Notes: generated by a model from the sequence alone, not told the origin. A DNA stretch of 32,255 nt from Candidatus Omnitrophota bacterium (GCA_016214325.1 JACROS010000035.1:1-32255); one strand, 5' to 3'. Shown: positions 11,264-32,255, counted from the first letter of the stretch. Numbers and translations are program-made.

Positions 11264-11276
11264 TAATCCTACCACT
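11258..11276. terminator. hairpin over the convergent stop codons
   Basis: TGGTAG, five-base loop, CTACCA spanning both stop codons of the convergent paralogues. There is no long T-run on either side; it could block read-through in both directions, but it is weak. Confidence 0.3.
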
Positions 11277-11718
11277 TTAAAAGCGGTATTTTATATCCTT
11301 CCTTAGTTGGATTGTCGACCTTATATTTTGGTTTCATTAATGGCTTATCATAAGGAGGCAATCCGCTTGTTGCTACATCAATGCTTCCTGCTACTCCTCG
11401 GGCAATTCCAGTAACTATTCCTTTACCGAAGCCGACAATTGAACCAATAATGACGTTGCCATTTCTAGAATTTTCTTCAATTTTATCTGGAACATCAACC
11501 CACGATGTTGCTACATTAATTAAACCTTCTCCCATTTTATAACCAGCTGTATTCTTTTCTAGCTTATCGGTATTGACGCTTTCAAGAAATGCATTAGGAA
11601 TAGGTTTAATGCTTGTGGTGGCAAGATTAGGCGTTATTACTTCTGGTTGAGCCAAAATGTTTGTGCAGCAGGGAAAAATTAAAGCGCTGATTACAACTAA
11701 GAGCAGTGCTGTTTTCAT
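11269..11718 (-). CDS. secreted TIGR04073-type protein, paralogue B (minus strand)
   Basis: 149 aa with a signal peptide (MKTALLLVVISALIFPCCTNILA, possible cysteine near the cleavage site). The central GLINVATSWVDVPDKIEEN, GSIVGFGKGIVTGIARGVAGSIDVATS and PPYDKPLMKPKY segments align with paralogue A (INxAT...ExP, GxxxGxxxxxxRxxxGxxDxxT, PPYxKPLxxPxY). Function unknown. A GGAGGTG ribosome-binding site sits 3 bases before the ATG. Unlike paralogue A it has its own promoter and a long, highly folded leader, so the two copies appear to be controlled differently. Confidence 0.7.
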   Translation of the reverse strand: MKTALLLVVISALIFPCCTNILAQPEVITPNLATTSIKPIPNAFLESVNTDKLEKNTAGYKMGEGLINVATSWVDVPDKIEENSRNGNVIIGSIVGFGKGIVTGIARGVAGSIDVATSGLPPYDKPLMKPKYKVDNPTKEGYKIPLLKW

Positions 11719-11723
11719 TTCAC

Positions 11724-11889
11724 ACCTCCTTGGGAGCCCCTCTGTCCTTTGGTATATTCTTTAGGATAGGTAGCTTTGCCTCCTGTTGATTCGTTCCCCG
11801 AATCAATACACAGGAGCTCCCATAATTATTTTGCTAAACAAAATTATGGGAGGCCCTTGGGTTACCCCAAGTTTGCCTTTTTCAATAGG
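11724..11889 (-). promoter_or_regulatory. structured 5' leader, candidate c-di-GMP-I-like riboswitch (minus strand)
   Basis: Read on the minus strand, the leader contains GGCAAAC, a hairpin CTTGGG-GTAA-CCCAAG with a GNRA loop, an 11-bp hairpin CTCCCATAATT/AATTATGGGAG, a third hairpin CTCCTG...CAGGAG, then GCAAAGCTACC, CCTAAAG, and finally AGAGGGGCTCCC just before the ribosome-binding site. GGCAAAC plus a GNRA hairpin, GCAAAGCTAC, CTAA and GGGG in that order resemble the c-di-GMP-I (GEMM) aptamer. However, two extra hairpins (about 75 bases) sit where the aptamer normally has none, so this is either a variant or a different element. CTCC-CAA-GGAG could hide the ribosome-binding site. Confidence 0.45.
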
Positions 11890-11898
11890 TCCAGAGTA

Positions 11899-25174: not shown

Positions 25175-25305
25175 TTATTTCCGAAATAGCTAACCCCCAT
25201 TGTTTTGTTTCGCTTTTGCGAAAGCAGGACGAAACAGTGGGGGGTCGCAAAGCTCATGGGTCCCCACCAGCCACGAAAATTGGGGATAGCCGGGTTGCCG
25301 AAGAG
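25175..25305 (+). promoter_or_regulatory. cyclic-di-GMP-I (GEMM) riboswitch aptamer
   Basis: The conserved core is read in order: AGCTAACC (equivalent of GCAAACC, with the ligand-contacting G), a long arm CCCCCA...TGGGGG capped by a TGC-GAAA-GCA tetraloop, GTCGCAAAGC (centre A of CAAAG equals A47 of the Vc2 aptamer), a second arm TCCCCA...TGGGGA, and AGCCGGGTTGCCGA (contains the C equal to C92). The G at the G20 position predicts c-di-GMP rather than cGAMP. It fills most of the 334-base gap between plsY and the 110-aa gene. Confidence 0.87.
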
Positions 25306-25345
25306 ATAAGGAGGAAACTTATTTAAGGCAACCCGGATTTTTATT
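25290..25345 (+). terminator. riboswitch expression platform: intrinsic terminator
   Basis: CCGGGTTGCC (25290-25299) pairs perfectly with GGCAACCCGG (25327-25336), with inner ATAAG/CTTAT, followed by ATTTTTATT. The left strand is the 3' part of the aptamer itself, so ligand-bound aptamer and terminator exclude each other; c-di-GMP should turn the gene on. Confidence 0.85.
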
Positions 25346-25379: not shown

Positions 25380-25712
25380 ATGCGTGATTTATTATTTAAG
25401 AATTTGACTTCTTTAGACAAGAAAAGAAAGATAATTTCAACTTGTGAAGTAGCAGATAAAGAAGGCATTCGTACTATTATTCGTCGCCATTTTGTTTGCA
25501 TGGTGCGCAGGGTTGAGGATAATAAGGTAATTAAGCCTGCTCCTTATTTATATGTATTGAAAGAGCGCCAAACACGTGAAGCAAAAGAAACGTTTTTATG
25601 TAAAATAAAGAATAGCGTATTTGTAACTTATAAAGATGAATTGTACTTGGTTTTATATATGCAGACATTGAAAATTAACTTGGAAGCAGTGGCACAAGGC
25701 TTAGCTAAATAA
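25380..25712 (+). CDS. unrecognised 110-aa protein under c-di-GMP riboswitch control
   Basis: I do not recognise a family. The protein is small, basic and cytoplasmic-looking, with no signal peptide or membrane helix. It starts MRDLLFKNLTSLDKKRKI and has a basic centre (GIRTIIRRHFVCMVRRVED), with three cysteines at about residues 22, 40 and 74 (TCEVAD, FVCMV, FLCKI). The C-terminal half is beta-rich. AAGGAG lies 9 bases before the ATG. It is the only gene directly behind the riboswitch and ahead of the surface operon, so a regulatory or adaptor role in c-di-GMP-dependent surface expression is possible, but that is inference. Confidence 0.7.
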   Translation: MRDLLFKNLTSLDKKRKIISTCEVADKEGIRTIIRRHFVCMVRRVEDNKVIKPAPYLYVLKERQTREAKETFLCKIKNSVFVTYKDELYLVLYMQTLKINLEAVAQGLAK

Positions 25713-25735: not shown

Positions 25736-25764
25736 TTGACAAAATAACGAATAATTAATATACT
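25736..25764 (+). promoter_or_regulatory. near-consensus promoter of a small transcript
   Basis: TTGACA, 17-base spacer, TATACT. The start should be near 25771; the transcript would end at the terminator at 25883. Confidence 0.8.
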
Positions 25765-25770
25765 TTATTA

Positions 25771-25883
25771 AAGTGTTTAGTAACTTAATTTTAGCCGGTT
25801 TCTCAATTTTTGGAGGAAGTTGAGAAATGCCACAAATAGTATTACCGGACGACAAAAATTGGTCAGTCCGGTTTTTTGTCTTT
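25771..25883 (+). ncRNA. small RNA or attenuator leader of unknown class
   Basis: A 113-base unit between a consensus promoter and a clear terminator. Hairpin TTTCTCAA...TTGAGAAA (25799-25827) holds GGAGG in its loop. CCGGT (25795-25799) can pair with ACCGG (25844-25848), closing a domain that includes the unpaired GCCACAAATAGTATT. The same ACCGGAC also forms the terminator ACCGGAC/GTCCGGT (25844-25872, then TTTTT). The two pairings exclude each other, as in riboswitches and attenuators. I cannot match it to a known class. Confidence 0.6.
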
Positions 25884-25886
25884 TGA
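25827..25886 (+). CDS. possible 19-aa leader peptide
   Basis: ATG at 25827, 11 bases after GGAGG, encodes MPQIVLPDDKNWSVRFFVF and stops at TGA. The frame runs through both strands of the terminator, so translation could prevent or promote termination, as in amino-acid attenuators. It may also be chance. Confidence 0.3.
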   Translation: MPQIVLPDDKNWSVRFFVF

Positions 25887-25897
25887 GGCAAATAGCA

Positions 25898-25926
25898 TTG
25901 ACAATGCAGAACTCAGTATCTATAAT
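25898..25926 (+). promoter_or_regulatory. perfect sigma70 promoter of the surface operon
   Basis: TTGACA, 17-base spacer, TATAAT. The inverted repeat CCCC-ATAA-GGGG (25928-25939) covers the expected start site and touches the ribosome-binding GGTGGAG, so it may act as an operator or a translation block. Confidence 0.85.
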
Positions 25927-25947
25927 ACCCCATAAGGGGGTGGAGAA

Positions 25948-27348
25948 ATGAAAAGCAAAATTTTTTGCAGATTCTTGGTTGTGGTTTTAATTTGTATTGT
26001 TGCTGGAGCTGTTTTTAGTAAGCGAGCTTTTGCAGCTTTTGGTATTTCATATTCTCTTACAGAAGGAGGGTCGCGGTTAGAATTGGATCCTGATGATTCT
26101 GATAAAGGAGTTCAGATTAGTGTAAATACAGATGCTGCTACTCAGTATGAAGTTATTCAGAGAATTGTTCAGCCAATGGTAAATCGGGATAATCCTAGTC
26201 AGTCTATTGGAGATAATTTTGTTGTTTATGGTTTAAGGGGAACTAATAAATTTGGTGATTTTCGTATTCCTCCTAATGAGCCTGGATTTGCAGTTAGAGA
26301 TGGAGAAAGGCTTTATACTTCTGATACGGCAGGAGATTCTGATGGCTTTACTTTAGTTTACGGGATTAAAAAAATTGGTGATATCGCTCCTGGGTATTAT
26401 CAAGGGCAAATTGCTTTTATTTTGCGCCCGACAAACTCAAGTCTTTCTGAAGTAACAACGTATTTATATGTTTATGTTACGATTCAGCCTGGCCCTGAAG
26501 CCGAAGCTTCTGTAGAAATTTCTGGTCCATTAGGCTCAAGGATGATTTCTCTGAATCCTAAAAAAGAAAATTTGCAGATTTGTGAAGTGCCGGTGAAGAT
26601 TAACGGAACGTTTAAGAATAATTTTAGCATTTCACAGTCAATATTAGGGGGTATTGAATCATCTGAAGGCAGCAGGCTTGAGCCAGGTCTTGTAAATGTT
26701 GAGGTTAAGAATGTTTCTAAAGGTGTAGGTATTAGTCAGCCATTGATTCCCGGACAACAGGTAGTTTATACTTCTGCTCCGGATGGGCAGGCAGATCAGG
26801 ATTTTGTAATAACTTATAGTTTGGGTGATTTATCGGATCAGAGAGCTGGTAAATACACTTCTAGGATAAATTACTATCTTAGTGAGGGCAATAAGCCGGC
26901 GCGTTTAATTAACCTGCTTGATTTAGAAATAGAAAATGAACGTGTTTTTGAATTGTTAATTACACCTAGCGATCAGACGGCAGCAATTGAGTTTAGGAAT
27001 CTTTCAGCAAAGGAGGGTTCAAAAATCAATGAAGTAGATATGGAAATTAAATCTAATTTAGGTAAGCCGTATCAAGTAACACAGAATGTTCTTTCTGAGC
27101 TAACTGATCTAGAGGGGAGGGTAATTTCGTTTGATAATTTTCAGGTGGTTACTGAAGGGCTTGATACAAAAGGAAAGTTAAATATAACTCAAAAACAAAA
27201 AGTACAGAAAGGAGATACTGTTCTTTTTATTTCTGATAAAAAAGGATCATCTGATAAATTTAAGATTATCTATGAATTAAATATTCCAAATGGAACAATC
27301 GCGGGTAACTATGCTTCCCGCGTCACTTATTCACTTGTTGAATTGTAG
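25948..27348 (+). CDS. secreted protein with three tandem beta-rich repeats
   Basis: 466 aa with a signal peptide (cleavage after about residue 29, RAFA). The mature part consists of three repeats of about 130-145 residues (about 41-165, 195-320, 330-466). Each opens with a beta strand of the SRxxLxP type, has a central QxxL/I segment and ends with a shared pattern: GDSDGFTLVYG, QADQDFVITYSL or SSDKFKIIYEL, then AGxYxxxIxYxL. They look like immunoglobulin-type beta sandwiches. No known family was recognised. It is first in the operon behind a perfect promoter, followed by pilin-like genes, so it may be a tip, anchor or minor subunit of the same surface structure. Confidence 0.65.
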   Translation: MKSKIFCRFLVVVLICIVAGAVFSKRAFAAFGISYSLTEGGSRLELDPDDSDKGVQISVNTDAATQYEVIQRIVQPMVNRDNPSQSIGDNFVVYGLRGTNKFGDFRIPPNEPGFAVRDGERLYTSDTAGDSDGFTLVYGIKKIGDIAPGYYQGQIAFILRPTNSSLSEVTTYLYVYVTIQPGPEAEASVEISGPLGSRMISLNPKKENLQICEVPVKINGTFKNNFSISQSILGGIESSEGSRLEPGLVNVEVKNVSKGVGISQPLIPGQQVVYTSAPDGQADQDFVITYSLGDLSDQRAGKYTSRINYYLSEGNKPARLINLLDLEIENERVFELLITPSDQTAAIEFRNLSAKEGSKINEVDMEIKSNLGKPYQVTQNVLSELTDLEGRVISFDNFQVVTEGLDTKGKLNITQKQKVQKGDTVLFISDKKGSSDKFKIIYELNIPNGTIAGNYASRVTYSLVEL

Positions 27349-27412
27349 AAAGGGGGTTAATATGAACGCAAAAATATTATTAAAGAACTTAATGAAAGGA
27401 GGTGAAGTTAAG

Positions 27413-28030
27413 ATGAAAAAGGTAATTTTAGTTATGTTAGTTGTTTTTGTTCTTGCTGTGGGGAGTTGTTATGCTGCAAATACACAGACAATTAACGTTA
27501 CTGCTACTGTTGCTGCGGTAGCAAATGGGTTAAATGTTGGAATATCAAAGATTGACTCAAAAGGTACGTGTGTTGCTACTGATGATTCTTGGACAAGCGG
27601 ACAGGCAGGCGTTGCTTTTGGAACGTTGAACTGGGATGCTGCAAATAGCATATTTCTGAATAACTACTATTATGCTGTTGATGTTGGTGTTGTGGATAAT
27701 AGTGGTGCTGCTTGGACGATTACACACACAAGAACAGATTTTAAGAAAGATGCTACCAATAACTTAAATAGTAATGTTAACGTTACTTTTGCTAAGCAAA
27801 CCGATGCAACAACAGGATCAGATTTATCAAAAGTTAGTTATGCAAATAGTAACAATGTTTCTTATACCAAGGCGCAGTTGGCTGGCGGTTGGTTAAGAGT
27901 CTATTATGGTATTGGTACTGGCGATGTGCGTGTTGGATGTACTGATGCAGCTGGTGTTACTCCGATTACCGTAGATAAGCCAGCAGGTGCTTATAGCGGA
28001 ACAGTAACATTGACACTTACAGGGGTTTAA
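27413..28030 (+). CDS. pilin-like secreted subunit 1
   Basis: 205 aa. The start was set at the ATG 9 bases after AAGGAGGTGAA, which gives a clean signal peptide (MKKVILVMLVVFVLAVGSCYA); an ATG at 27362 in the same frame would add 17 residues. The mature protein opens with NTQTINVTATV, an alternating hydrophobic strand that could act as a donor strand, and ends AGAYSGTVTLTLTGV, a pilin/spore-coat-U-like last strand. It is rich in N, T, S and Y, with two mature cysteines (KGTCVAT, VGCTDAA) that could pair. It is a close paralogue of the next gene. Likely a major fibre subunit; the family was not identified with certainty. Confidence 0.65.
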   Translation: MKKVILVMLVVFVLAVGSCYAANTQTINVTATVAAVANGLNVGISKIDSKGTCVATDDSWTSGQAGVAFGTLNWDAANSIFLNNYYYAVDVGVVDNSGAAWTITHTRTDFKKDATNNLNSNVNVTFAKQTDATTGSDLSKVSYANSNNVSYTKAQLAGGWLRVYYGIGTGDVRVGCTDAAGVTPITVDKPAGAYSGTVTLTLTGV

Positions 28031-28074
28031 GGTATAGGCTAAAGGAATGGAGTGAGGGGAGGTGAAATGAAATT

Positions 28075-28692
28075 ATGATAAATAGAATTCTAATTATTTT
28101 ATCTTTCCTCGCTCTTGTTCTGACTGATTGTTTTGCTGCGACTACGCAAACATTAAATGTTACAGCAAATGTTCCTCTTCAGTCTGGTGGATTAACTGTT
28201 GCGGTATCAAAGATTGACTCTAAGAATACGTGTACTTCTGTTGGCGACCAATGGTACCCAGGGCAGGCTGGTATTGCTTTTGGGACATTGACCAGGAATA
28301 CTGAATACAATATATTTGTTACACAATACTATTATGCTGTGGATGTTGGTGTTGATGATAATAGTGGTGCCGCTTGGACAGTTACTCATACCAGAACAGA
28401 TTTTAAGAAAGATGCTAGCAATAATTTAAATAGTAATGTTAACGTTACTTTTTTTAAACAAACTAATGCAACAACAGGGACACAATTGAAAAAAGTTAGC
28501 TATGCAAATAGCGACAATGTTTCTTATACCAAAGCTCAGTTATCAGGAGGTTGGTTGAGAATTTATTATGGAATTGCTACTGGTGATCCTGAAGAAGGGT
28601 GTACTGATGCATCTGGAGTTGTTCCTATTCCAGTGAGTAAGTTAGCAGGTGCTTATAGCGGAACAGTGACATTGACGGTGACAGGTTTGTAA
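28075..28692 (+). CDS. pilin-like secreted subunit 2 (tandem paralogue)
   Basis: 205 aa, the same length as the previous gene and about two thirds identical by eye, including long identical DNA stretches over the middle (HTRTDFKKDA, NNLNSNVNVTF, SYTKAQL) and the end GAYSGTVTLTVTGL. The signal peptide (to CFA, residue 21) has diverged. Both mature cysteines are conserved (KNTCTSV, EGCTDAS). The ribosome-binding site GGGGAGG fits better with an ATG at 28067 that encodes only Met-Lys-Leu-stop and overlaps the true ATG. An in-frame TGA upstream fixes the start at 28075. Confidence 0.65.
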   Translation: MINRILIILSFLALVLTDCFAATTQTLNVTANVPLQSGGLTVAVSKIDSKNTCTSVGDQWYPGQAGIAFGTLTRNTEYNIFVTQYYYAVDVGVDDNSGAAWTVTHTRTDFKKDASNNLNSNVNVTFFKQTNATTGTQLKKVSYANSDNVSYTKAQLSGGWLRIYYGIATGDPEEGCTDASGVVPIPVSKLAGAYSGTVTLTVTGL

Positions 28693-28695
28693 TTG

Positions 28696-28713
28696 AAACT
28701 TAAAAATAAGTTT
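28696..28713 (+). promoter_or_regulatory. intercistronic hairpin after the subunit genes
   Basis: AAACTTA-AAAA-TAAGTTT, a perfect 7-bp AT-rich hairpin 4 bases after the stop of subunit 2, without a T-run. It could stabilise the upstream mRNA or reduce expression of the chaperone gene, as in other pilus operons. Confidence 0.4.
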
Positions 28714-28758
28714 ACAGGCTGAGAAAATGCGGTAAAATAAAGCAAAGGGAGGTGTGAT

Positions 28759-29625
28759 TTGCGCAGGATATGTTTGTGTTTAATATTTCTGTTTCTTTTT
28801 GTCAGCCAAGCTTTTGCAGTAACACCTCCTTTTCTTGATAAGCAAAAAGTAAGATTGTCCATTGTCCCTGGTCAAACCGCTTATGGCGATTTGGTGATGG
28901 AGAATCCATCAGCTGAAACAAGGCAGATGCGCGTATATTTAGAAGACTGGAACTATCTGCCAGCTGGTGATGGTTCTAAGAAGTTTGCTCCACCAGGTAG
29001 TTCTGTATCATCATGCTCCCCATGGATCACATTCTCTCCTTCAGAATTTACCTTACCTGCTTATGGAAAACAGCGAATTAGTTTCTCGGTTAATATGCCT
29101 AAAGACGCCAGAGGAACATATTATTCTGTAATGTTTTTAGAAAGTGTTTTTGGAGAAGCAGTTGCGCAACAGCAAGGAATTAGCGGAGGGTTGAGTTTAG
29201 CAATTAGAGTAGGTGCGCTTTTTTATATTGAGGCAAAAGGGACTATAAAACGCTCTGCAGTAATAAACAATCTTTCTGTTAAAAAAGACACAGAAACAAA
29301 AAAGACATTAGTAAGTATAGATTTGCGTAATACCGGAAACACCGACATTACTGCCGGGGGCTCATTTCATATTATGAATAACGAAGGTTTAATTCTTGCC
29401 AGAAGCGAGTTTTCTGATGCTTATACCTTTGGCGGAAGTTCTGCTCAATTAACAGCATTTTGGAAGGGAAATATTCCTGCTGGAAAATACAGCCTGGTTT
29501 TAACCATTAATATAGGAAAAGCCCTTGAAGAGCTTGGCTTGGGAAGGGGCCCAATTATTATTAAAGAAGCTGAAATTGAAATCGGGCAGGACGGAAGCGT
29601 GCTTAAGGTCGGTGAATTAAATTAA
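28759..29625 (+). CDS. PapD-like periplasmic chaperone candidate
   Basis: 288 aa with a signal peptide (RRICLCLIFLFLFVSQAFA). The start is TTG, 4 bases after GGGAGGTG. Residues about 28-130 follow the PapD N-domain pattern: VRLSIVPGQTAYGDLVMENPSAETRQMRVYLEDW, then SPWITFSPSEFTLPAYGKQRISFSVNMP and GTYYSVMFLES. A second beta domain (NLSVKKDT...VSIDLRNTGNTDI ... IPAGKYSLVLTINIG) follows. This resembles fimbrial chaperones (COG3121) or the DUF916-type cell-surface proteins. Placement right after two pilin-like genes and before a large outer-membrane protein supports the chaperone reading. It is longer than the typical 230-250 aa. Confidence 0.6.
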   Translation: MRRICLCLIFLFLFVSQAFAVTPPFLDKQKVRLSIVPGQTAYGDLVMENPSAETRQMRVYLEDWNYLPAGDGSKKFAPPGSSVSSCSPWITFSPSEFTLPAYGKQRISFSVNMPKDARGTYYSVMFLESVFGEAVAQQQGISGGLSLAIRVGALFYIEAKGTIKRSAVINNLSVKKDTETKKTLVSIDLRNTGNTDITAGGSFHIMNNEGLILARSEFSDAYTFGGSSAQLTAFWKGNIPAGKYSLVLTINIGKALEELGLGRGPIIIKEAEIEIGQDGSVLKVGELN

Positions 29626-29632
29626 TACTTCA

Positions 29633-32255
29633 ATGAAAAAAACCTTTCTTATTGGCACGTTAATAATTTCGTTTTTTTTATTTCAATCTCCTACCCCTGT
29701 TTATCCTCTGAATCAAATCTCAGAATTACTTTGTGAATTAGGAATCAAATTGTACCGCAGTGGTAGATATGCTGAGGCCCTTCATGAGTTTAAAAAGGCT
29801 TTAATTGCTAATCCTAATTATACTCCTGCAAAGAAGTATGTCCAAATGATCGAGCAGGCAAATCTTGTTGAGCCTGAGATTGTGCCTTCTACTTTTAAGC
29901 CGATCAGCCCTGAGCCAAAGAGCGCAATGAACGAGTTATTGGATTTGGTTGACTTACAAAGAGAAATTATTAGCGACAGGGAGTTAGTAAAGGTAGAAAA
30001 AGAAATAAAGAAAACAGAGTCTAAACCTTTAATTAAACAAAAGGCTAAGAAGGTCAAAAAACCTTTGATTACCGAAGAACAAATGCCTGAAGCCAAGAAC
30101 CAGGTTAAGTTGGTAGAAAAACCAGCTATTGCTAAGCCGAGCAAAGTTGAGGTAGAGTCTTCAAGGATAGTTCAAAAGCCTGATGTAGTAGTTCAGAAAT
30201 CTGTTGTTTCTATTGAGCAGCCTGCCAAGGAAGAGATTGAAGAAATTGTTACGCCGTCTGAAGAAGCGCCATCTGTGCAGGAAGAAGCTGCTGAGGTGGT
30301 TGAGAAGAAATCAGTTGTGGAGGAAGGTGTAATTACTCTGGATAGTTCATTGAAAAGTTTACCAAGCCCGATACAAATTGCAACAGGAAGGTCATTTATT
30401 ATTAAGGGCAGTAATATTACCCGTTATTTGGTTGATCAGACTGACATAGTTAAAGTGGAAAAGAAAAGTCCTGATGAATTGCTGGTAACTGGTACTGAGA
30501 TTGGATATACTCATGTTTATGCTTGGGATAATAATGGCCGTTGGAGTATGGAGTTTTTAGGAGTTTTCCCTCAGCCAGAAGGCCCAACATATGAGGAGAT
30601 TGTGCGTAAAGAAGAGGAAAGAGAAAGAAATTTTCGGATAAAATACAATCTTGATTGGTCAAATTATCAAACCGGCCGTGGTGTGGGTGATTTAAAAAGG
30701 GTTACGTATTACTGGTCGCATAACTTGGGGATAGTTGGTCCTACCCCTTATGGTGAAGTGGATTCTTCATTTACAGTCAGAAGATTGAATGTAAAGACTG
30801 ACTTGACTTATTTTACATTTGGGTTAAAAGATGGAGTATTAGGGCAGTTTAAAGGTTTTAATTTTAGAGGAGGAGATTATAATCCTAAGTTTACAAATAT
30901 GGCTTTCCAAGGTGCAGTATTGCGCGGAGTGATGTTAAATTCTCCTGCATTTGATAAGAAATTTAATTATACTGTTCTTTGGGGCAGAGAAGGTGGCGGG
31001 CGTTATGGCAATCTATCACCAAATTTAATGAAGATTAAGAATTCATTTCTTGCCGGGACAAACCTGCAATTTAATCCCACAAAAAAACAAAATTATCAAT
31101 TCACGATTTTACATGGCTGGGGAAGAGACAGAGATGATTTATTAAATAAATATAATTATGATTTGCTGGGAAAGTGGAATTTAGGTAAATGGGGCATGGG
31201 TTATGAAATGGCGAATGACAGTGAGAAGTTTGCTCATTTGTTTAATGTGCGTTTTAAACAGGAAGGCTTAAGTTTTACCACAGAGTTGCGTAATATTGAT
31301 AAAAGTTACAACACTATTACAGGACGTGCCTGGAGACAGGGTGAGCTGGGCGCTCTTTTGAACTTAGATTATAAGCCAAGTGATAAATTAACTATTCATT
31401 CTAGCTTGGACGCTTATCAGGATAGGTTATATCCTGCTGAAGATAATCCTCAGCGCTGGAATCAGGATTTTAACTTTAATGCCACGTATCAGCTTGACCA
31501 GGTAACAAGCGATAGTTCGGATTATGTTAATGATAAATTTTATGCTGGTTTGCGTTTTAAACTGCTCGGTGCGCTGTATTATTATGCAAACAAGGAATAT
31601 AATATGGTAATCGAGGAATCTACAGGCACTCATACTAATCCGAATGCTTTTGAAACCGGTCTTGATTGGTCTGATCGTTTGGGAAAATCTCCATTTTATG
31701 CAAGCATGCGTTTTACTTACCGCGATGAAGAGAATACGGCTTCTCGCTTGTCATTTTTGTCAGGTGAGGATTATATAGAGGGTTATTCGCAGTTATCGTA
31801 TCGTCCTAATCCGGATGTAGAAGTGTATAGTTCATTTCGTATGCGCAATGTCTGGGCGGATAATCCGGCTGTTAACAAAAGTTTCGAAATTGATTTAAAT
31901 GCCGGGCTTCGTTATCTCTGGGATACTGGAGTGCGTTGGGATGCAGTTGGCAATATTGAAGGTTATGTTTTTAAGGATTATAATTCTGATGGGTTGCGTC
32001 AGAGAGATGAGCCTCCGGTTGAGGGCATTAAAATCTGGTTAGGTAAAGATAAATACCAGGTTACGGATTTATTTGGTTATTATAAATTTAAAGGTGTAAG
32101 GGCGAGAAAGGCATTTGTTAGTCTTGATACAAATACATTGCCTAGAGGTTTTATTTTGACTGTTCCTTTAGTTCAAGAGGTGCCAATTTTAAATCATCGG
32201 ACTCAGATAGTTAATTTCGGAGTAACATCTGAGACTGAGATTAGCGGCTTTATTT
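29633..32255 (+). CDS. large outer-membrane protein, usher-like candidate (3' end outside window)
   Basis: The frame is open from the ATG at 29633 to the window end (874 codons). Order: signal peptide (about 1-26); TPR-like unit LYRSGRYAEALHEFKKALIANPNYTPAKKYV (about 45-75); a Glu/Lys/Val/Pro-rich linker (about 85-230); a domain like the pilus/secretin N-terminal domain of CpaC/RcpA (about 233-312: ITLDSSLKSLPSPIQIATGRSFIIKGSNITR... GYTHVYAWDNNG); a long beta-strand-rich, aromatic region suited to an outer-membrane barrel (about 325-765); then an SdrD B-like domain (GYVFKDYNSDGLRQRDEPPVEGIKIWL... TDLFGYYKF). No classical FimD signature was seen. It is probably the outer-membrane assembly platform for the fibre subunits. 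Confidence 0.65.
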   Translation, partial: MKKTFLIGTLIISFFLFQSPTPVYPLNQISELLCELGIKLYRSGRYAEALHEFKKALIANPNYTPAKKYVQMIEQANLVEPEIVPSTFKPISPEPKSAMNELLDLVDLQREIISDRELVKVEKEIKKTESKPLIKQKAKKVKKPLITEEQMPEAKNQVKLVEKPAIAKPSKVEVESSRIVQKPDVVVQKSVVSIEQPAKEEIEEIVTPSEEAPSVQEEAAEVVEKKSVVEEGVITLDSSLKSLPSPIQIATGRSFIIKGSNITRYLVDQTDIVKVEKKSPDELLVTGTEIGYTHVYAWDNNGRWSMEFLGVFPQPEGPTYEEIVRKEEERERNFRIKYNLDWSNYQTGRGVGDLKRVTYYWSHNLGIVGPTPYGEVDSSFTVRRLNVKTDLTYFTFGLKDGVLGQFKGFNFRGGDYNPKFTNMAFQGAVLRGVMLNSPAFDKKFNYTVLWGREGGGRYGNLSPNLMKIKNSFLAGTNLQFNPTKKQNYQFTILHGWGRDRDDLLNKYNYDLLGKWNLGKWGMGYEMANDSEKFAHLFNVRFKQEGLSFTTELRNIDKSYNTITGRAWRQGELGALLNLDYKPSDKLTIHSSLDAYQDRLYPAEDNPQRWNQDFNFNATYQLDQVTSDSSDYVNDKFYAGLRFKLLGALYYYANKEYNMVIEESTGTHTNPNAFETGLDWSDRLGKSPFYASMRFTYRDEENTASRLSFLSGEDYIEGYSQLSYRPNPDVEVYSSFRMRNVWADNPAVNKSFEIDLNAGLRYLWDTGVRWDAVGNIEGYVFKDYNSDGLRQRDEPPVEGIKIWLGKDKYQVTDLFGYYKFKGVRARKAFVSLDTNTLPRGFILTVPLVQEVPILNHRTQIVNFGVTSETEISGFI

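Follow-up and report, generated by a model that had tools for sequence, protein, structure and literature searches.

We find that a five-gene operon of Candidatus Omnitrophota most likely works like a chaperone-usher pathway, in a divergent form whose predicted outer-membrane gate has no plug. We read the locus as encoding a putative fibre system that is diverged, chaperone-usher-like and of the alternative (EcpB) type, and give this reading a probability of about 0.6. The window, a stretch of 32,255 nucleotides, makes up the whole of contig C40 in a draft assembly of 1.48 Mb and ends inside the last gene, so that this gene is without its final ~90 residues. All five genes of the operon that had been proposed from the sequence are present as open reading frames, closely spaced on the plus strand (Table 1). 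An Omp85 protein was also found in the same genome, in keeping with a diderm cell. The analysis shows the content and order of the genes, their conservation, the relationship of the chaperone and the predicted folds.

Table 1. Features of the putative fibre locus and its upstream region, in window coordinates.
Feature	Coordinates	Strand	Description or evidence
Probable c-di-GMP-I-GGC type riboswitch aptamer	25180..25303	+	Extended P2 arm
110-aa ORF (MRDLLFKNLTS...)	25380..25712	+	Kept at the same place in several relatives
Promoter-like site P1	25736..25764	+	TTGACA-17-TATACT, 11/12
Structured leader RNA	25787..25879	+	GGAGG-loop hairpin, GCCAC motif, then intrinsic terminator
Promoter-like site P2	25898..25926	+	TTGACA-17-TATAAT, 12/12
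A466, secreted protein, 466 aa	25948..27348	+	Three tandem pilin-like beta domains
S1, pilin-like subunit, 205 aa	27413..28030	+	AF2 model; alignment
S2, duplicate pilin-like subunit, 205 aa	28075..28692	+	68% identity to S1
CH, PapD/EcpB-like two-domain periplasmic chaperone, 288 aa	28759..29625	+	hhalign; PDB profile search
OMP, usher-like outer-membrane protein, at least 874 aa	29633..32255 (contig end)	+	Pfam; AlphaFold model; Foldseek

CH had originally been described as a PapD-like two-domain protein, and profile comparison bears this out. Using hhalign, we aligned CH over both domains to the E. coli common pilus chaperone EcpB (94%, E 1.1e-7), and a profile of the relatives' CH proteins found EcpB in the PDB at 7e-5, improving to 3e-6 after sequences had been added. 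Through this match, CH provides the two-domain PapD-superfamily chaperone that belongs to a chaperone-usher pathway. CH did not match PapD_N (PF00345), nor FimC at this profile-comparison sensitivity, and because EcpB was matched and FimC was not, we tied it to the alternative branch. Across 47 sequences, a K or R at the A1 strand (42/47), R150 (44/47) and Y244 (43/47) are kept, as is P94 (44/47), which we read as the proline common to all pilus chaperones. Chaperones of these pathways anchor the subunit carboxylate through an Arg/Lys pair or an Arg89-type residue (PMC4654587); in EcpB and CsuC, an Arg of strand F holds the subunit. Our reading of the EcpB alignment gave no clear Arg89 equivalent in CH, the strand-F Arg seemingly not being conserved.

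A wider CH profile also matched the Enterococcus protein WxLIP (DUF916/DUF3324) over both domains and nearly its full length (E 1.7e-6, profile positions 36-274), for which a strand completing the sandwich of WxL has been predicted (PMC10599100). Both points would suit a surface complex resembling the Gram-positive WxL/WxLIP type, in which CH would complete and anchor A466 and the S subunits and OMP would serve as a membrane anchor, with no processive fibre being formed. We consider this unlikely, as EcpB matches CH about equally well, CH ends without a C-terminal membrane helix, and no WxL model was matched in A466, S1 or S2. The combination of an usher-like barrel with duplicated subunits carrying N-terminal extensions also suits polymerisation better. 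WxLIP itself differs in being Gram-positive and membrane-anchored, with WxL-domain partners and no outer-membrane protein.

The protein at the usher position had been presented as a mosaic, and each of the Pfam domains named was recovered in OMP: TPR (8e-6), the secretin-type N domain T2SS-T3SS_pil_N (PF13629; 8e-8, above the cut-off) and an SdrD_B-like domain (6e-6). Pfam detected no Usher, CooC_C or TcfC domain in OMP, whereas EcpC does show CooC_C/TcfC; no NCBIfam family was found, and neither FimD nor EcpC was matched by profile comparison. The Usher domain (PF00577) was absent from all 128 genomes of the order (the organism's own and 127 others), while the E. coli control was positive. 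An ordinary FimD/PapC usher was rejected on the absence of both the PF00577 and the profile-comparison match, and sequence homology to EcpC on the absence of any alignment. With the secretins of type II/III secretion and CpaC, OMP shares the pil_N domain; we rejected a secretin too, since this N-terminal domain alone matches and no Secretin domain follows it.

The predicted fold, on the other hand, points towards ushers. We modelled the OMP of a close relative (locus L064, 922 aa) with AlphaFold from 36 sequences, obtaining a pLDDT of 84 and a pTM of 0.57. The model comprises helices, the N domain, 26 long strands (residues 241-722) and two C-terminal beta domains. FimD and PapC likewise combine a large barrel with two C-terminal domains, but their strands number 24, and the model has no plug, that is, no domain inserted among strands 241-722. 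Searching the PDB with Foldseek, we obtained FimD/PapC ushers as the eleven best matches (E 4e-20 to 8e-13; ~800 aligned columns), the best non-usher match being a transporter at 3e-9. Superposition on FimD was poor (TM-score 0.32), which together with the pTM means that the likeness to ushers is one of local structure. Since the eleven best matches are FimD/PapC, we prefer to describe OMP as usher-like, either highly diverged or convergent; its predicted topology is good evidence of this likeness, not proof of homology. The notion of a non-FimD platform thus holds at the level of the Usher model and the FimD and EcpC profiles, but the Foldseek result does not support a platform unrelated to ushers.

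Should OMP instead be a large porin or exporter with no relation to ushers beyond common beta-barrel features, the S subunits and A466 would have to be exported by another route. The missing sequence tie to ushers, the low TM-score and the TPR and secretin-type N domains, which are unusual for ushers, fit such a protein. We nevertheless regard it as quite improbable, given that ushers beat the best other barrel (4e-20 vs 3e-9), that the two C-terminal beta domains are usher-like, and that the gene neighbourhood is fixed and OMP co-occurs with CH (see below).

Compared with its relatives, the OMP of the window is without 52 barrel residues near position 31507, in frame (L064 residues 532-583), which may reflect either a genuine deletion or faulty assembly. 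In three relatives, proteins of ~900 aa that share the TPR N-terminus alone with OMP are encoded directly upstream of A466 (L082:1985-4762, L087:2322-5012 and L100:3032-5812), possibly representing a second outer-membrane barrel.

The secreted protein at the head of the operon had been noted for a triple repeat, and its three domains indeed align with one another at E 1e-17 to 7e-26 (hhalign). Domain 1 bears a distant resemblance to the core of the S subunits (E 7e-5, hhalign). No N-terminal extension precedes domain 1, which fits a tip role, and A466 is a candidate for the tip or initiator of the fibre. Its C-terminal domain matched the NCBIfam model 'Pam pilus system pilin subunit' (NF058581) at positions 91-143 of 148 (E 1e-7), with a score of 32 bits that lies under the curated cut-off of 55 bits. 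The same model was matched by 6 of the 17 aligned A466 proteins; our literature search found no description of the Pam pilus system.

S1 and S2 had been noted as duplicated 205-aa subunits, and they are 68% identical. The AF2 model of S1 is a beta sandwich (pLDDT 90) in which the N-terminal extension (ANTQTINVTATVAAV) is not part of any strand, and sequence and model are consistent with donor-strand assembly. The two cysteines described as conserved do exist outside the signal peptide, but S1 and S2 have them in common with the sister species only and not with the family. Homology of the S subunits to EcpA or FimA was rejected, as no sequence match or alignment was obtained. In the PDB, S1 had no significant match. 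Its best, non-significant matches include the cannulae protein CanA (2.8e-3) and the bundling pili of Pyrobaculum (6e-2), two weak top matches that are archaeal donor-strand fibres. They would fit a filament that assembles itself by donor strands, as TasA or archaeal bundling pili do; CH would then be an accessory like TapA and OMP no more than an exit pore. To this we give very little probability, as the matches are not significant and the locus encodes a dedicated EcpB-like chaperone and an usher-like barrel.

In two distant lineages, a GH26 glycosidase domain is fused ahead of the S pilin domain (L088:392-1852 and L054:13424-14887). Such a fusion would place the enzyme on the fibre, a possible fibre-borne enzyme, and we counted it in favour of the fibre model, as it is what would be expected of fibre-borne cargo.

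Conservation of the gene order had been proposed as a check, and the order A466-S-CH-OMP was kept in 25 of 40 loci from named records; of the remainder, most are truncated where their contig stops, and L089 and L090 are variant loci. In a first set of relatives, A466 was found upstream in 17 of 21 loci, and the OMP gene followed the CH gene in nearly all those with enough sequence. Of the genomes in which CH and full-length OMP were both looked for, counted by hand from tables, 14 carried both and 21 neither, with four discordant (14:3:1:21; Fisher p 6e-7). Upstream of the locus, several relatives have ORFs sized like the window's genes for LepA, signal peptidase, phosphatidyltransferase and PlsY, so that in these relatives the locus is probably an old one that has been kept by vertical descent. 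Scanning species genomes with short conserved patterns returned Omnitrophota and two records labelled only 'bacterium', and the usher-like OMP is common across the phylum. A literature search found no paper pairing Omnitrophota with chaperone-usher systems.

From these data we infer how the fibre would polymerise and be exported. S1, S2 and A466 would cross the inner membrane by means of their Sec signal peptides, after which CH would lend these proteins a strand and hold them apart in the periplasm. The resulting complexes would dock at the periplasmic TPR/N domain of OMP, where the N-terminal extension of one S subunit (TQTINVTATV) would enter the groove of the next. The growing fibre would then leave through the 26-strand barrel, led by A466 on account of its missing N-terminal extension.

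This arrangement resembles the E. coli common pilus (EcpA-EcpE) in its chaperone, in the grouping of subunit, chaperone and outer-membrane protein in a single operon, and in the C-terminal beta domains of EcpC and OMP, both of which touch the CarboxypepD_reg fold. It differs from that pilus in the TPR and secretin-type N domain of OMP, in the lack of CooC_C/TcfC and of an EcpC profile match, and in its S subunits, which cannot be aligned to EcpA. From the type 1 and P pili it is set apart by the absence of an Usher match in the 128 genomes and by a chaperone unrelated to FimC at the sensitivity used. We do not grant the locus membership of the chaperone-usher pathway, because the usher model and the plug, both of them defining, were looked for and not found; standard searches would miss the gate because it is so unlike known pilus gates. 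Of the original interpretation, a chaperone-dependent fibre with a non-FimD outer-membrane platform, the chaperone relationship, the conserved order and the lack of a recognised usher have stood, while a platform unrelated to ushers is not supported.

Downstream of OMP, the relatives (L063-L102) carry a convergent module on the minus strand with a c-di-GMP-I riboswitch. The riboswitch reached the Rfam gathering score in 7 of 9 loci, and our own model matched 36 of 40, 19 of which had been used to train it. In many loci, the module contains a conserved ~85-aa ORF (QRVVTFLNREEVDFLDKLGKDALF). A further product of the module is a secreted protein of ~98 aa, whose N-terminal sequence is DSVSIxVSCTIPAIPGVNAP and whose C-terminal sequence is TIYSR. 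It starts with a donor-strand-like segment and contains no pilin domain. The mature N-terminus of this protein scored as an S donor strand (at least 7.0 bits) in 18 of 36 cases, against 2 of 1800 shuffles, which suggests that it may cap the fibre or anchor its base. The riboswitch lies upstream of its gene and would control this protein. The window's contig ends ahead of the module; the best riboswitch match in the organism's own genome (contig C70) was rejected as a copy of it, as it stands in another context.

More tentatively, these loci may form a separate fibre-assembly class across Omnitrophota, combining an EcpB/WxLIP-type chaperone, a plugless 26-strand TPR/secretin-type gate and a riboswitch-controlled, near-donor-strand protein that may stop or anchor the fibre. 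We hold this to be possible but rather doubtful.

Upstream of the operon, the single promoter first described has to be replaced by two promoter-like sites that enclose a structured RNA and a terminator. The leader RNA matched no Rfam family, and its hairpin has a variable stem and a GGAGG loop. It recurs 7 times in the organism's own genome, where several of the other copies stand ahead of genes whose products are very large, secreted and alike at their start (DLSSSF...FRPIHLRYLQY), and at least 15 of the relatives' loci have it in front of the operon. We regard it as a candidate new cis-regulatory RNA. The 110-aa ORF matched no Pfam family.

The aptamer-like element farther upstream is probably, though not provenly, a c-di-GMP-I riboswitch. 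It scored 27.3 bits with Rfam (E 4e-4), under the gathering score of 59, and only 15 bits with the relatives' riboswitch model; its fold z was -6.4, and its 3' strand overlaps a terminator hairpin (CCGGGTTGCC...GGCAACCCGG-ATTTTT, about 25289-25340). Elsewhere in the window, a c-di-GMP-I riboswitch into which a long arm is inserted (11720-11896, minus strand) immediately precedes an ORF for a secreted product of 149 aa (11269-11718, minus strand) that has no Pfam family. At least one of the relatives carries a PilZ gene upstream of its operon.

If our reading holds, the variety and spread of usher-type gates would exceed what domain searches reveal: the 128 genomes of the order have no recognisable usher, yet the usher-like OMP is common in the phylum. 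Because the matches of CH extend to EcpB on the diderm side and to WxLIP on the monoderm side, it becomes testable whether chaperones that lend a strand share an origin. Omnitrophota are suspected of a predatory or host-dependent life (PMC10066038; neither ushers nor fimbriae are named in the text of that study), and for their surface attachment the locus provides a concrete candidate.
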